64,000 nucleotides of DNA, from positions 1-64,000 of IMG/VR virus record IMGVR_UViG_3300020578_000017. One strand, given 5' to 3'. Made by a program: the position numbers and the translations under genes. This document shows, in pieces, positions 32,597 through 49,311 of this stretch. The DNA comes from a virus. Position 1 is the first letter of the stretch. Each line of letters starts with the position of its first letter. The notes under the pieces are model-generated. The model made no database searches. It worked only from the letters and a program-made list of their open reading frames with translations, and had not been told where the DNA came from.

Positions 32597-34477
32597 TTAC
32601 GTAACCCTCTCAGACTTTAGTATAGGGCTTTCTATGATTGGAAAAAGCGTAGGCTCTTGAAATACAGGAACATCTTTAATGTCTGAATACGCATAGCTGA
32701 TAAACTTCAAATGTACATCCCGTATTTTTATTGGAATTGGCTTTCTAATATGCCAGTCCGTTAAGAAAACAACACTTACACTTGCCATGTAGTACTGATC
32801 TGTTGTATTTTCATCATAAGGTTCTTCTGCTTCGCCTTGTATAGAAATCTCATCTAGGATTATTCCCTCGGAATCAAATCTTTCTTTTAGGGACAGAAGA
32901 TACATGGCGGTTAAATCAGTAATTTCTTCCTGCTGAATTGGGTCTAAAGCAACTATATCTAGGGTAAAAGAAACTCTAAATTTACCCCCATACTCATGGG
33001 AAGTTGGCTCAGGATCACCCGAAATAAAAACTAGCTGCCTCCCACCTACCTGAGCTTGTTTTGCGAAACTTAAAACGCAACCTTCTATTGCTTCATTATT
33101 TGCACCATACGCAGAGAATTCGTAAGGACCCTGTGAGTCTAATGCATAATAATAGCTTACCTTTACTTCACCTTCAGGAATAGCTTCATTGAATATCAGA
33201 TCATTTGTGTCAGAGTCAAATGTGAAAACTTCATGGGATATAATATCTTTCTTTACCCATACATCAACGCTTTTTGCTACAATGCCAGCATCTGGAAGCA
33301 TTATTCTCCAAGAATCATCAAACACTTCGGCTATAGGAACTGTAAGACCGGGGGATTCGCTGAGATAATAGTAGCTAGCGGTTACCCTTAATCCTGGTGG
33401 TAGCTTTTTTGAAAAAGTTACCTTGTAGCCATCTACTAGAGAAAATGTTATCTTATCTTTGCTATAAACGTCTGTATTTTCGTCTGTGTAGTTAAAAAGC
33501 TTTTCTTCATCTAACCAAACTTCTAAGGTACCTGCTACTGTTTTTGAAAACTCTAAGTCAAGTATACTTTCTGTACCGGTAGTTTTTCTCTTTAGAAGTT
33601 CGTTTGAAACTCTTTTTATTACAAAGTAATCAAAGCCAGATTGTAATGTCTCGTCGGTACTGGCCTGTACGATACTTAAGTTAATACCTGACTGCTTTTC
33701 TTTAAAGGTAATAGTACGTAAAGATTCATCTATCTCATACTTACTGCTATCTACATCAACATCATCTACTCTAACAGTTAAGTCTGTAAAAATATCAGAT
33801 CCAAGTTCTTCGTTAAAATATATCTTTGCTCTTCTAAAGTTTGAAGTACTAATAGGAAAAGGTGCCCTGTATAACAACGGGTCTACCATAAAAGTAGTGT
33901 CAGATACAATCTCTACCCCGTAAGCACCGACATGAGCCAAGTGTAAAGAGTAGTAAGCTATTTTAACTAAAGATCCAGAAGGCGGGGCTGTCCTAAGCTG
34001 CACTAAACCTTCTGTTGGGAAAATCTGAAAAGGAGTTACAGACTGCCCATCAACGTAAACGCTTATGGAGCCAACGTCATCTTTATTTAAGGATACGATC
34101 TCTTTTTCAAACTTACTAAGACCTACCAATTGCTGATTAGATAACTCAAATAAAACATTGTCACCATCTACCTGGTCTGATACATCATCTACATGATACT
34201 GTACAAGATTTTGAGTGTCTTCTCTTACCCATTCTACAGCAGAGCCAGAAATATTAACTAAGCCTACGCGAGAAAGAACTTGACCAAGATAGTTGTCTGG
34301 AGATAGCTTTATCTGCTCTGCACTACTATTTTTAACGATAATACCATACTTGCTTTTTTCATCAAGTTGGTATTTGTTTGTTACAGTAATTTTGTCGTAA
34401 ATAGGATGAGTACGAAAAGCTCCTTGAAGCTCCCGTATTAATCTACGCTTTACGGCGTTAGTTAATTGATAATAAAT
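32597..34477 (-). CDS. Neck / tail-completion-like structural protein with ATT start
   Basis: The frame runs well upstream of the first ATG/GTG/TTG-type start (TTG at 34129). The extra 116 codons are coding-like (YYQLTNAVKRRLIRELQGAF and on). The only fit for a start is ATT at 34477-34475, seven bases after AGGTGA that overlaps the previous stop; an in-frame TGA lies three codons upstream. The protein would be 626 residues. It holds several copies of a beta unit ending PPSGSLVKIAYYS, PPGLRVTASYYYL and IPEGEVKVSYYYA, and begins a motif with DGQSVTPF. The sheath and the 38993-40213 protein share the unit. Position between connector and sheath suggests a neck or tail-completion role. Confidence 0.7.
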   Translation of the reverse strand: MYYQLTNAVKRRLIRELQGAFRTHPIYDKITVTNKYQLDEKSKYGIIVKNSSAEQIKLSPDNYLGQVLSRVGLVNISGSAVEWVREDTQNLVQYHVDDVSDQVDGDNVLFELSNQQLVGLSKFEKEIVSLNKDDVGSISVYVDGQSVTPFQIFPTEGLVQLRTAPPSGSLVKIAYYSLHLAHVGAYGVEIVSDTTFMVDPLLYRAPFPISTSNFRRAKIYFNEELGSDIFTDLTVRVDDVDVDSSKYEIDESLRTITFKEKQSGINLSIVQASTDETLQSGFDYFVIKRVSNELLKRKTTGTESILDLEFSKTVAGTLEVWLDEEKLFNYTDENTDVYSKDKITFSLVDGYKVTFSKKLPPGLRVTASYYYLSESPGLTVPIAEVFDDSWRIMLPDAGIVAKSVDVWVKKDIISHEVFTFDSDTNDLIFNEAIPEGEVKVSYYYALDSQGPYEFSAYGANNEAIEGCVLSFAKQAQVGGRQLVFISGDPEPTSHEYGGKFRVSFTLDIVALDPIQQEEITDLTAMYLLSLKERFDSEGIILDEISIQGEAEEPYDENTTDQYYMASVSVVFLTDWHIRKPIPIKIRDVHLKFISYAYSDIKDVPVFQEPTLFPIIESPILKSERVT

Positions 34478-34487
34478 GACGTATCAC

Positions 34488-34745
34488 CTAATATTTTATA
34501 GTCTCGTCGGGTAGCTCATTTATGACTTTTTTCTTTTTAAGCTTATCTAAAGCTTGACCAAGGCTATCCAAATTTTGCTTTGGTAGTTTTTTTAAGCCAG
34601 GGTCACTTACAAACTTATCTAAAGCTTTTGTCAAATTAGTCTTTGACGTTTGCCCGCCACTACTTGTACTAAGTTCTTTTTTGTTTAGTAGGCCAACTTG
34701 CTTAGCATAAGAAATGGAGTCCTTGAACTTTTTCAAAGACCCCAT
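34488..34745 (-). CDS. Small Lys-rich protein, probably the -1 frame extension of the preceding gene
   Basis: 85 residues from ATG 34745, Lys/Leu-rich and helical (ALDKFVSDPGLKKLPKQNLD). No clear ribosome site precedes this ATG. The same frame is open back to 34823, into the end of the preceding gene, with coding-like residues (NAVVDKNVTKALNYLE). An A-heptamer and stem-loop lie at that junction. It is therefore likely made mainly as the C-terminal 111 residues of a -1 frameshift fusion of about 341 residues. No family is recognised. Confidence 0.6.
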   Translation of the reverse strand: MGSLKKFKDSISYAKQVGLLNKKELSTSSGGQTSKTNLTKALDKFVSDPGLKKLPKQNLDSLGQALDKLKKKKVINELPDETIKY

Positions 34746-34781
34746 CCCGAATGACTTATCGGACTCAGCTACGTTCTCTAA

Positions 34782-34829
34782 GTAGTTTAACGCCTTAGTG
34801 ACGTTTTTATCAACTACCGCGTTTTTTTT
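34782..34829 (-). promoter_or_regulatory. Putative programmed -1 frameshift signal
   Basis: On the minus strand, TCA AAA AAA ACG CGG TAG ends the 232-residue gene. The heptamer A AAA AAA (34829-34823) allows both tRNAs to slip back one base. A five-base spacer follows, then a stem of GTAGTT (34817-34812) with AACTAC (34787-34782) and an inner AACG/CGTT stem. Slipping joins the frame at 34488-34823. Layout and spacing match known -1 signals. A miscount in the eight-A run is the main alternative. Confidence 0.6.
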
Positions 34830-35512
34830 GAGAGTTTAACGAAACTGGCTTTCTTTTTGGTGACAGGAGAATCAGCAGAAGCCTTTACAGGCATTGCGCC
34901 CTCAAAGCCTCCTAAATCATCAGCCTGAGCAAAAGGAGCATGGCCTAATGAAGTTACTTCTGGAAGAGCCTCGTGACGGAAAACAGCCTTGACAGAAGAT
35001 AGGCTCTTATTAGAATCAATCCTGTCCTGAACTGCGGGGCCTTCATTTCTGGCGGTGCCGATAGAACTTGCGTCAAAGTTGGCGAACTTGGCTAGTTCCT
35101 TAGCAATTCCCATTACTAAGTTGTACTCTTCTGCATAGAGGCTAGCAACTTTAGATGCCTTCCTCTTAGAAGCAACTACTGGAGAATGGCCCATCAGCAT
35201 ATCGCTGATGGCATCTAAGCCCTTGGGGTAAAAGTCAGAGTTATGAGCCTGATCGCCATAAACAGCTTGCGCTCTAGCCTGGACTTCAGCTAATGAAGGT
35301 GGGTTCCAATCTTCCTGGGGAAGAACAGCGGATAAAGGCATATCCTTGACATGCTTCATGCCTGAAAAGTTATGATTATGAATTTCTACATTGCGACCAC
35401 TGTTGTCATGAACCTGAAAAGAATCATCAACACCAATTTCGTCTTCAGCGCCAGGAACCATTAAACTAGCTAACTTGGCTAGCTCGCGGGCAATTTCTTG
35501 ATCTCTTGACAT
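34814..35512 (-). CDS. Unknown protein, frameshift donor
   Basis: A 232-residue protein, fairly hydrophilic, with paired Lys/Ala motifs (ELAKLASLM, ELAKFANFD) near each end and a His-rich patch VEIHNHNFSGMKHVKD near residue 45. The C-terminus KKKASFVKLSKKTR is basic and ends at the A-run. Lys-Ala-Ser stretches of this kind are also seen in the scaffold-like and cysteine-module proteins here. The gene has a 74-base leader without a neighbour, with AAGGACTCCCTTTAA before the ATG. Function is unknown; frameshift production of a longer form is likely. Confidence 0.65.
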   Translation of the reverse strand: MSRDQEIARELAKLASLMVPGAEDEIGVDDSFQVHDNSGRNVEIHNHNFSGMKHVKDMPLSAVLPQEDWNPPSLAEVQARAQAVYGDQAHNSDFYPKGLDAISDMLMGHSPVVASKRKASKVASLYAEEYNLVMGIAKELAKFANFDASSIGTARNEGPAVQDRIDSNKSLSSVKAVFRHEALPEVTSLGHAPFAQADDLGGFEGAMPVKASADSPVTKKKASFVKLSKKTR

Positions 35513-35586: not shown

Positions 35587-36555
35587 TTAATCGCCAAATA
35601 GGGATTTTACTTTTTTCTGCCTATTCAAACGATTTTTATCTCTAAGAGACTTAGCCTCTTCTATGTCTTCATCTTCCTCTACATCTAAATGCTTTGGTGT
35701 GATGTCGAACTCTGGTTTCTGTGAAGGAGGGATATTTTCGGGTTCTTCTGGAGCAGCCTCTTCTTCTGCCTCAAACTCTTCAAAAGGCTCTTGTTTTGGC
35801 CTGAATGCCGAGAACTCACCCTCTTGCTCTTCCCTTTTAAAAAGCTTAGGGACTCCCTTTACTGCAGGAATAACATCCTCTTCCATTTCTTCTACCGCCT
35901 TAGTATCAATGTCCTTAGGTAGCAACGTGGTTGGGACAGTCTGTATTTCTGAAACAGCTCTGTTTTTAAATAATGGCTTTACGCCTTTTTCTGGAGCTTT
36001 TTTCTCAGAAAAAGGTGAGGAGGGTAATGCTGATACTTCTTCCTCTTCTGGTTTCTGTAATTCTTGAGGCTTAATTGGCATATCAAGTTTAAACTTATCT
36101 AAAAGTTTTCTTACTGAAGCGAATATATGCTTACAGCCATAATTTACCCTTACAGGATCTCTTACTTTAGGAGGAACAAGCTTTCCTCTTGAGTTTCCTA
36201 GTAACGCATCTTTTTGAGATAAGTTATACTGACCGCCTTGGTATAGAAAAGCTGGACAGTCGCAGTTTACTTTTATGTTTAGATCTTTTTTGTCTTCTAC
36301 CTGGGTAGGATCATCTAAAATCTGAATACTTACCTTATGACCATCTTTTTTTGAATCTTTCTCTGAGCACACTACTTTGTATACATAGATGCTATCTTTT
36401 TCAGAGTAGTTCAGTAATCCAGTTGAACAGTTTAGCGAATTTCTATTTAGTTTTGACTTAGAAGACACAATCTCATCAAGAGATATAGCTGCTATTTTGA
36501 CACGACCAGAAATAATGTTTCTGATCGTTCCAACTAACACTAGGATAGGGATCAC
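35587..36555 (-). CDS. SWIM zinc-finger protein
   Basis: A 322-residue protein. Residues ~50-145 hold a SWIM-like finger, NCDCPAF (Cys98, Cys100) and YGCKH (Cys141, His143): CxC-x40-CxH, with a longer spacer than usual. SWIM fingers bind DNA or protein. The remainder (150-322) is disordered, very rich in Glu and Pro, with a basic end. It overlaps the actin-like gene by four bases, which points to a joint role with that ATPase, perhaps DNA or capsid contact. Partner and function are inferred. Confidence 0.68.
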   Translation of the reverse strand: MIPILVLVGTIRNIISGRVKIAAISLDEIVSSKSKLNRNSLNCSTGLLNYSEKDSIYVYKVVCSEKDSKKDGHKVSIQILDDPTQVEDKKDLNIKVNCDCPAFLYQGGQYNLSQKDALLGNSRGKLVPPKVRDPVRVNYGCKHIFASVRKLLDKFKLDMPIKPQELQKPEEEEVSALPSSPFSEKKAPEKGVKPLFKNRAVSEIQTVPTTLLPKDIDTKAVEEMEEDVIPAVKGVPKLFKREEQEGEFSAFRPKQEPFEEFEAEEEAAPEEPENIPPSQKPEFDITPKHLDVEEDEDIEEAKSLRDKNRLNRQKKVKSLFGD

Positions 36556-37574
36556 TCACTGTCCTCAAGCTGTGCGGCAACCATAAGACCCCTAGCTACG
36601 GCAGTAAGTGGATCAGATGCATGTCTAATTTCTCTTACCTCAAAGGGGAAGTTACTCTTATGCTTTTCAAATACCTTTTTAAACATATCAACGAAACCGC
36701 CTGCAAGAGAAGTACCGCCTGCGATTACGATAGGAATAGCATCAGAAAGCTCTACCTTAGCGTTTTTCATCTCTTTGACTACAAATGAAACGGCTCTTTC
36801 GATTAGAGTCTGGTAGTAGAATGCAATAGCTTCTTCTTCCTTTGAACTAAAATCATCGGCCATAATATTAACGCCTTTTTCCTTGATGATCTGAATGCGG
36901 GAAGCTGTGGTGCTTAAGGCTCTAGCCACGCTTGCGTCAATCTGATCGCCGGAACCTTGAATTGAGAACTGAAGAATAGGCATAGTCATGTAGCTAAAAC
37001 AAACGTTGACCATACCGCCACCGAAAGACATGGATAAACCTGTAAAATTGCTATCCTGGCACTCAGCATAAATGATTGCCATAGCTTCATTGATTGGTAC
37101 AGGTCTAAATCCCAGGCTAGATACTAGCCTCTCAAGAACCTTTGTATGGTAGATATTGTTTACGCCTTTGTTATCTACTGGATCTGCGGGAATAGAATAG
37201 CAAACAACCTCACCTTCCTTTGCAGGCTCACCAAGTAGGCTCTTAATAATAGCGGCTAGAATATCCCCAGAAATCGCTAGCTCTTCTGGGGATATTAAAC
37301 CATCCTTTAATGGCCTTCTTGCTTCTCTCTTAAGTAGATTTGCAAAGTTTACTGACTCATCGCCAATAATATAGAAGTTGCCACCTAGCTCAAGTAGCTT
37401 GGCACCGGACATCTTGATAGTATTTTTAATGAAGGGCTCATCAGGTACATCTATAAAAGAGTCTCTAATCTTTGTAAGAACTACTTCTCCTGAAGCATTT
37501 TTAACTGCCGAAACAAAGAAACATGTACCAGCGTCAAGTCCCCTACCTGGGTTAATATCAGTTTTCTTAGCCAT
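36552..37574 (-). CDS. Actin/Hsp70-fold ATPase
   Basis: A 340-residue protein with the three nucleotide-binding motifs of the actin superfamily: GLDAGTCFF (phosphate 1, residues 13-21), MSFGGGMVNVCF (phosphate 2, about 182-193) and IVIAGGTSLAGG (adenosine, about 282-293). Length fits ParM, MreB-like and Alp filament proteins. It overlaps both neighbours, a coiled-coil protein upstream and the SWIM-finger protein downstream, so the three probably act together. Phage actin homologues can move or segregate phage DNA. Placement inside a virion cassette is unusual, and a role in the particle or in assembly is possible. Polymerisation cannot be judged from sequence alone. Confidence 0.8.
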   Translation of the reverse strand: MAKKTDINPGRGLDAGTCFFVSAVKNASGEVVLTKIRDSFIDVPDEPFIKNTIKMSGAKLLELGGNFYIIGDESVNFANLLKREARRPLKDGLISPEELAISGDILAAIIKSLLGEPAKEGEVVCYSIPADPVDNKGVNNIYHTKVLERLVSSLGFRPVPINEAMAIIYAECQDSNFTGLSMSFGGGMVNVCFSYMTMPILQFSIQGSGDQIDASVARALSTTASRIQIIKEKGVNIMADDFSSKEEEAIAFYYQTLIERAVSFVVKEMKNAKVELSDAIPIVIAGGTSLAGGFVDMFKKVFEKHKSNFPFEVREIRHASDPLTAVARGLMVAAQLEDSE

Positions 37575-48771: not shown

Positions 48772-49272
48772 TTAAACTAGAAGTAGTAATCCGAGCCAGG
48801 GGTCGGAAGCGGTGGGAGCCTTGACAACAACGCCGACTTCAACGGTAGAAGCGCCCTTTTCCTTGGTTAGAAGACCATTGGCGGAGGAATATAGAAGGTC
48901 GCCAGCGGCATAAGCAGCTAGAGCGGCGCCATCGCCGTCGTTAGTATGAGTCTCATAAACGTCAACCTGGCAAGCGCCTAGGCAATGGACGAAGGGACCC
49001 TTTTCTGAAGCTACTGCGGGGGTATTCTCGAAAGGATTACCGGCAGCGTTGTTGATGAATAGACCTAGGGGACGATCAGAGCGGTCACAGGCGCCGACTA
49101 AAAGATCATCCTTTAGACCAGCAACGGAACCACCTAGGACGCCATTAGGCATGCTTGCACTAAGAGTGTCATTGGTGTAATCACCACCTAGTGAATTAAC
49201 CTTTGTGAAAGCATCTTCCTCTAATGAGAATAGAGAGTTACGATGCCCCACATATTGAATGCGTAGAGCCAT
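48772..49272 (-). CDS. Head decoration / stabilisation-like protein
   Basis: A 166-residue protein directly upstream of the capsid gene. Beta-rich, with GPFVHCLGACQVDVYETH, then YAAGDLLYSSANGLLTKEKG and VEVGVVVKAPTASDPWLGLL. The 'y..GdlLY.s.nG.lt......vG.v...P...dp.lg' pattern is found in capsid-surface proteins that cement the lattice. It has a good GGAGAAAGG ribosome site. Use of GC-richer codons matches the capsid gene. Confidence 0.68.
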   Translation of the reverse strand: MALRIQYVGHRNSLFSLEEDAFTKVNSLGGDYTNDTLSASMPNGVLGGSVAGLKDDLLVGACDRSDRPLGLFINNAAGNPFENTPAVASEKGPFVHCLGACQVDVYETHTNDGDGAALAAYAAGDLLYSSANGLLTKEKGASTVEVGVVVKAPTASDPWLGLLLLV

Positions 49273-49311
49273 TTTTTTTTACCTTTCTCCTACAATCAGG
49301 AAAAACATTTT

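Follow-up and report, generated by a model that had tools for sequence, protein, structure and literature searches.

Two open reading frames of an uncultured large tailed phage meet at a run of eight adenines, in different frames, which raises the question of whether they are two genes or one and, if one, how the change of frame came about. The locus lies in the 64,000-nucleotide window analysed here, which is part of a 116,449-base IMG/VR viral record. By capsid and sheath, the phage is one of a large group with affinity to LR745208 (485 kb), Tunturiibacter phage Tunturi_5, and Bacillus phage G. A sequence-only reading had proposed a programmed -1 frameshift that joins two genes outside the tail chaperone position. 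The whole feature (the A8 run, the stem, and both ORFs) is on the minus strand:

34814..35512, minus strand: ORF A, very probably the upstream part of a single gene; 232 codons, ending TCA AAA AAA ACG CGG TAG
34822..34829, minus strand: A8 run (TC A AAA AAA ACG), the sole slip-prone sequence where the frame must change
34829-34823, minus strand: heptamer A AAA AAA, followed by the five-nucleotide spacer ACGCG
34782..34817, minus strand: candidate stem, outer GTAGTT (34817-34812)/AACTAC (34787-34782), inner AACG (34805-34802)/CGTT (34792-34789)
34488..34835, minus strand: open frame B, very probably the lysine-rich C-terminal part of the gene; 115 codons, without a start of its own that has a Shine-Dalgarno sequence
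34746..34823, minus strand: -1 frame between the slip and the first ATG of B; 26 codons, coding-like, with the predicted first helix of the B domain

The donor end, the heptamer, the five-base spacer, and the paired segments of the stem are all present as the sequence-only reading had described them, and the heptamer sits, as X_XXY_YYZ, in the frame of ORF A. The frame change is confined to about 20 nucleotides, from a TAA in the B frame (34838-34836) to the TAG in the A frame (34816-34814). When a codon model was trained on 29 long genes of the contig, it assigned a probability close to 1 to frame A up to the A8 run and to frame B from the run onward. The first ATG of B (34745) lies 26 codons past the slip point, across a 68-nucleotide gap from the stop of A. 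In this model, the codons that precede it score as coding, 11 nats above the best of the other phases on that strand. A stricter six-frame test, including the four codons before the slip, leaves them a margin of 4.6, and only about 7% of off-frame stretches of this length are free of stops. The claim that the -1 frame is open and coding-like ahead of the ATG was therefore upheld. An AlphaFold model of frame B from its single sequence (mean pLDDT 72, pTM 0.57) has two helical hairpins, and its predicted first helix (residues 10-25) is wholly before the ATG. The B part is basic and, by prediction, helical. Foldseek returned no meaningful matches with it, and a sequence repeat within B, likely by eye, was not significant when tested.

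Because the codon frame switches at the A8 run, the stretch before the ATG codes, and the first predicted helix precedes that ATG, we are confident that A and B are one gene. Their joining into one product, of 341 residues against the approximately 341 expected, is thus the part of the earlier proposal that stands. If B were instead an independent gene, ribosomes would start on it at ATG 34745 or reinitiate beyond the stop of A. The ATG is there, the genes are tightly packed, and coupling is common, but no Shine-Dalgarno sequence precedes this ATG, as the sequence-only reading had noted, and the gap from the stop of A is long. Moreover, the 26 codons ahead of it are coding and hold the first predicted helix, and a relative described below has a single ORF. 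We regard an independent B as very improbable.

The product of ORF A alone would have 232 amino acids and a C-terminus reading ...KKTR. It contains two copies of an ELAKLAS...DxxNK module, whose fuller form, ELAKLAS..PG.ED.IG..NSG..VQDN.D.NK, is clearest in the homologue of this relative. Neither A nor B has a family match in profile libraries. The place of the gene in the genome is given by the following neighbours:

36552..37574, minus strand: Volactin-family actin-like protein (PF25216, E 1e-68)
35587..36555, minus strand: SWIM-like zinc protein, the upstream neighbour, matched by Pfam SWIM only below the cut-off
32597..34477, minus strand: tail-terminator-like protein, the downstream neighbour, with ATT (34477-34475) as start
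27772-26077, minus strand: tail-assembly-chaperone-like pair, about seven kb from the A/B pair, which lies before the terminator-like gene

The A/B pair is not between the tail tube and the tape measure, and the position of the tail assembly chaperone is taken by the 27772-26077 pair. The location assigned by the sequence-only reading, outside the chaperone position and between SWIM/actin genes and a neck-like gene, was hence correct. Because the gene adjoins neck and tail genes, its place suggests that the A/B protein may be an accessory protein of the virion or of its assembly. It resembles the frameshifted tail assembly chaperones (phage G gp181/gp182, and the pair in the window) in having a second frame without its own start. 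It differs from them in its locus and, relative to the chaperone of the window, in the direction of the shift, since the second frame of that chaperone is +1 and that of A/B is -1. In the chaperone-like pair, TTG 27258 is the earliest start available to the second ORF, whose frame, +1 to the first, suggests a +1 (or -2) frameshift rather than one of the -1 type.

Some neighbouring features are of separate interest. The place of Volactin-family genes beside the neck and tail genes is conserved in many large phages (36552-37574 in the window, and about 100 IMG/VR loci). The Volactin gene is interrupted, perhaps by an intein, inside an open frame of about 710 codons in two of the records (L126/L129 and L127/L128). 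The terminator-like gene (34477-32597, minus strand) has no ATG, GTG, or TTG start. Alignment with relatives, over the motif M-Y-Y/F-x-L, places its start at the ATT at 34477-34475, which is preceded by a Shine-Dalgarno sequence (AGGTGAT). Three codons before the ATT its frame is closed by a stop, and the first canonical start after it comes 116 codons later. The homologous codon is ATT in L148 (as L228), L166, L167, and L204, ATC in L008 and L015, and ATG, GTG, or TTG in 37 other relatives, mostly with a good Shine-Dalgarno sequence upstream. From these alignments, this looks like repeated AUU/AUC initiation in one tail gene of related phages, and it may be relevant to start-codon biology more generally. 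Apparent homing-endonuclease-like genes are inserted beside the terminator-like gene elsewhere (L012:6770-7657, L010:15370-16065), and the one in L012 carries a copy of the opening codons of the terminator-like gene (MYFHLTEA). A longer poly-A run in the window, the A9 at 49272-49280, lies directly between the ribosome site and the ATG of the gene at 49272-48772, upstream of the major capsid gene; a cousin at 80% identity (L025) has almost this arrangement.

We then considered how the frame might be crossed. Under programmed -1 ribosomal frameshifting, the tRNA-Lys pairs would slip on A_AAA_AAA, aided by the stem, and would set the ratio of A to the A-B fusion. The exact X_XXY_YYZ heptamer, the five-nucleotide spacer, the stem at the usual place, and the clearly coding fused frame all fit this mechanism. 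With a stimulator, V_VV.A_AA.R motifs belong to the efficient classes in Escherichia coli (PMC4066793), and phages are known to use -1 shifts outside the chaperone, as T3 and Lactobacillus phage A2 do in capsid genes, for example (PMC5009743). At the density observed in the contig (14 in about 19,100 codons), an in-frame A_AAA_AAA would fall in a seven-codon window by chance in about 0.5% of cases. However, these 14 in-frame sites, in 57 kb of other intact genes, compare with 8 expected under codon or synonymous shuffling. The motif is tolerated, not avoided, in the intact genes of this contig, and so common there that by itself it does not single out the A/B site. In E. coli, AAAAAAA is under-represented in all frames (PMC4066793).

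The possible stimulators also count against this mechanism. The stem folds at -9.7 kcal/mol with a z score of -2.1 in a 43-nucleotide cut, shows no excess over shuffles in longer cuts (0.0 in 63 nucleotides, -0.25 in 93 nucleotides), and competes with an alternative fold. It is marginal. No Shine-Dalgarno-like stimulator is visible upstream of the A8 run, and the best V_VV.A_AA.G motifs give about 0.3% without a stimulator (PMC4066793).

An informative comparison comes from L148 (IMGVR_UViG_3300020198_001494), a 95-kb IMG/VR contig and the sole relative found to carry the A/B gene. It shares the gene order of the window, with 58% identity in Volactin and 41% in the SWIM-like protein. Residues 6-211 of ORF A are 36% identical to its homologue (E 2e-24), which is the start of one 412-codon ORF (L148:6505-7743; 412 aa). 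This ORF continues through a lysine-rich C-terminal part, in the place of B, and is followed by an HNH-like gene and then by the terminator-like gene. The L148 gene has no A run longer than six and no in-frame A_AAA_AAA anywhere. The heptamer, for whose conservation in related phages the sequence-only reading had proposed to look, thus has no counterpart in the single informative relative. The C-terminal part of L148 resembles B in place, charge, and some motifs. Their sequence comparison gives shuffle p values from 0.08 to 0.01 depending on the gap cost and a BLASTP E of 0.94, so that homology between them is only suggestive. The AlphaFold model of the L148 part (mean pLDDT 64, pTM 0.21) is too poor for comparison.

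A scan with a two-sequence profile of A revealed no further relatives in IMG/VR. There was no match to A or B in phages by tblastn to an E of 10, none to either as a single protein in IMG/VR, and none in 84,980 genomes; A had no match in 50 related records. A pattern with the exact flanks of the run and any run length found no other record. The relatives retrieved through their neck and capsid genes do not have A/B, owing to the variability of the slot that separates Volactin from the terminator-like gene. In most of them, Volactin leads directly to the terminator-like gene or does so after unrelated small genes.

Since the intact relative has its gene in one frame, a one-base slip in the DNA or in its sequence is likelier than a built-in frameshift signal. 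The analysis lends no support to the notion of programming, even though it does support the single product and the coding stretch before the ATG. In L148 the frame is single and the heptamer missing, intact genes do not avoid this motif, the structure is weak, and base rates favour an indel or an error. We judge programmed -1 frameshifting improbable.

Transcriptional slippage on the A8 run would place both parts in one frame in a share of the mRNAs, with no ribosomal signal. Homopolymers of at least eight are the usual substrate of transcriptional realignment (PMC3711429), a length that the A8 run reaches, and indel rescue of this kind is known in A+T-rich endosymbionts (PMC5009743). The mechanism does not need a conserved stem. 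The locus is similar to the poly-A slippage sites of dnaX, the Shigella mxiE/spa genes, and Buchnera in that its frame changes at a run of eight or more. It differs in that eight is at the low end of the length, the dnaX case using nine. Furthermore, A8 runs occur in intact genes without visible avoidance, and the run is not conserved in L148. This mechanism seems to us quite improbable. Taken together, the view that the A8 run is a newly arisen, lineage-specific recoding signal, ribosomal (-1) or of the RNA polymerase, is a tentative one that we consider unlikely. From such a signal, an accessory protein encoded next to the neck and tail genes of a large phage-G-like phage would be made in two forms, A alone and the complete A-B.

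We consider it probable that a one-nucleotide change in the length of the poly-A tract, a real indel or a consensus error, splits a lineage-specific gene. For orphan frame transitions confined to a single genome, a survey of 1106 genomes expected gene overlaps to account for about one third and sequencing errors or indels for the remainder (PMC3711429). By this analogy, base rates would favour an indel or an error. The locus is like the singleton 'fs-genes' of Antonov et al. (2013): the frame changes exactly at a poly-A, the gene is an orphan, and an intact homologue exists elsewhere. It is unlike the 'fs-genes' split by homopolymer indels in that its downstream frame is not decayed and most other genes of the contig are intact. 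In T7/T3 gene 10 and in the capsid and tail genes of Lactobacillus phage A2, -1 frameshifting also uses a heptamer, a spacer, and a stem, and a coding -1 frame adds a C-terminal domain. Unlike in these genes, the A/B signal is not conserved, the stem is weak, and the gene is lineage-specific rather than a major virion protein family.

Some observations weigh against a split gene. First, the consensus is not generally error-prone at poly-A: elsewhere in the 116-kb contig, the A8 runs seen within genes leave their ORFs open, and in a scan for missing starts only the A/B junction and the AUU-start gene stood out strongly. Given these open genes, widespread errors at poly-A in the contig were rejected as an explanation. 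Second, B is not decayed, which is expected only if the indel is recent, if it is an error, or if the full-length protein continues to be made. With B intact, ribosomal or polymerase slippage may still yield some of that protein. The account of a split gene also depends on one informative relative, L148, whose C-terminal part is only suggestively homologous to B.

If the gene is indeed split in this way, A and B would form one accessory gene of the phage lineage, encoding a basic, mostly helical protein of about 341 residues in the variable slot between the Volactin and terminator-like genes. Its frame would have been broken by a one-nucleotide change in the junction poly-A tract, either through an indel that truly arose by slippage among the phages of the population or through an error in the metagenomic consensus. 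The unbroken frame would be the ancestral state, no dedicated recoding signal would be at work, and the 232-residue A product would be a truncation, not a regulated second product. Rescue at a low level by -1 frameshifting or transcriptional slippage may occur. If the cause is only an indel or a consensus error, A and B should be annotated as one split gene, and neither as two proteins nor as a proven frameshift. If recoding is true, the locus would represent the recent gain of a frameshift site by a gene that is single-frame in a relative, and the states before and after this gain could be compared.
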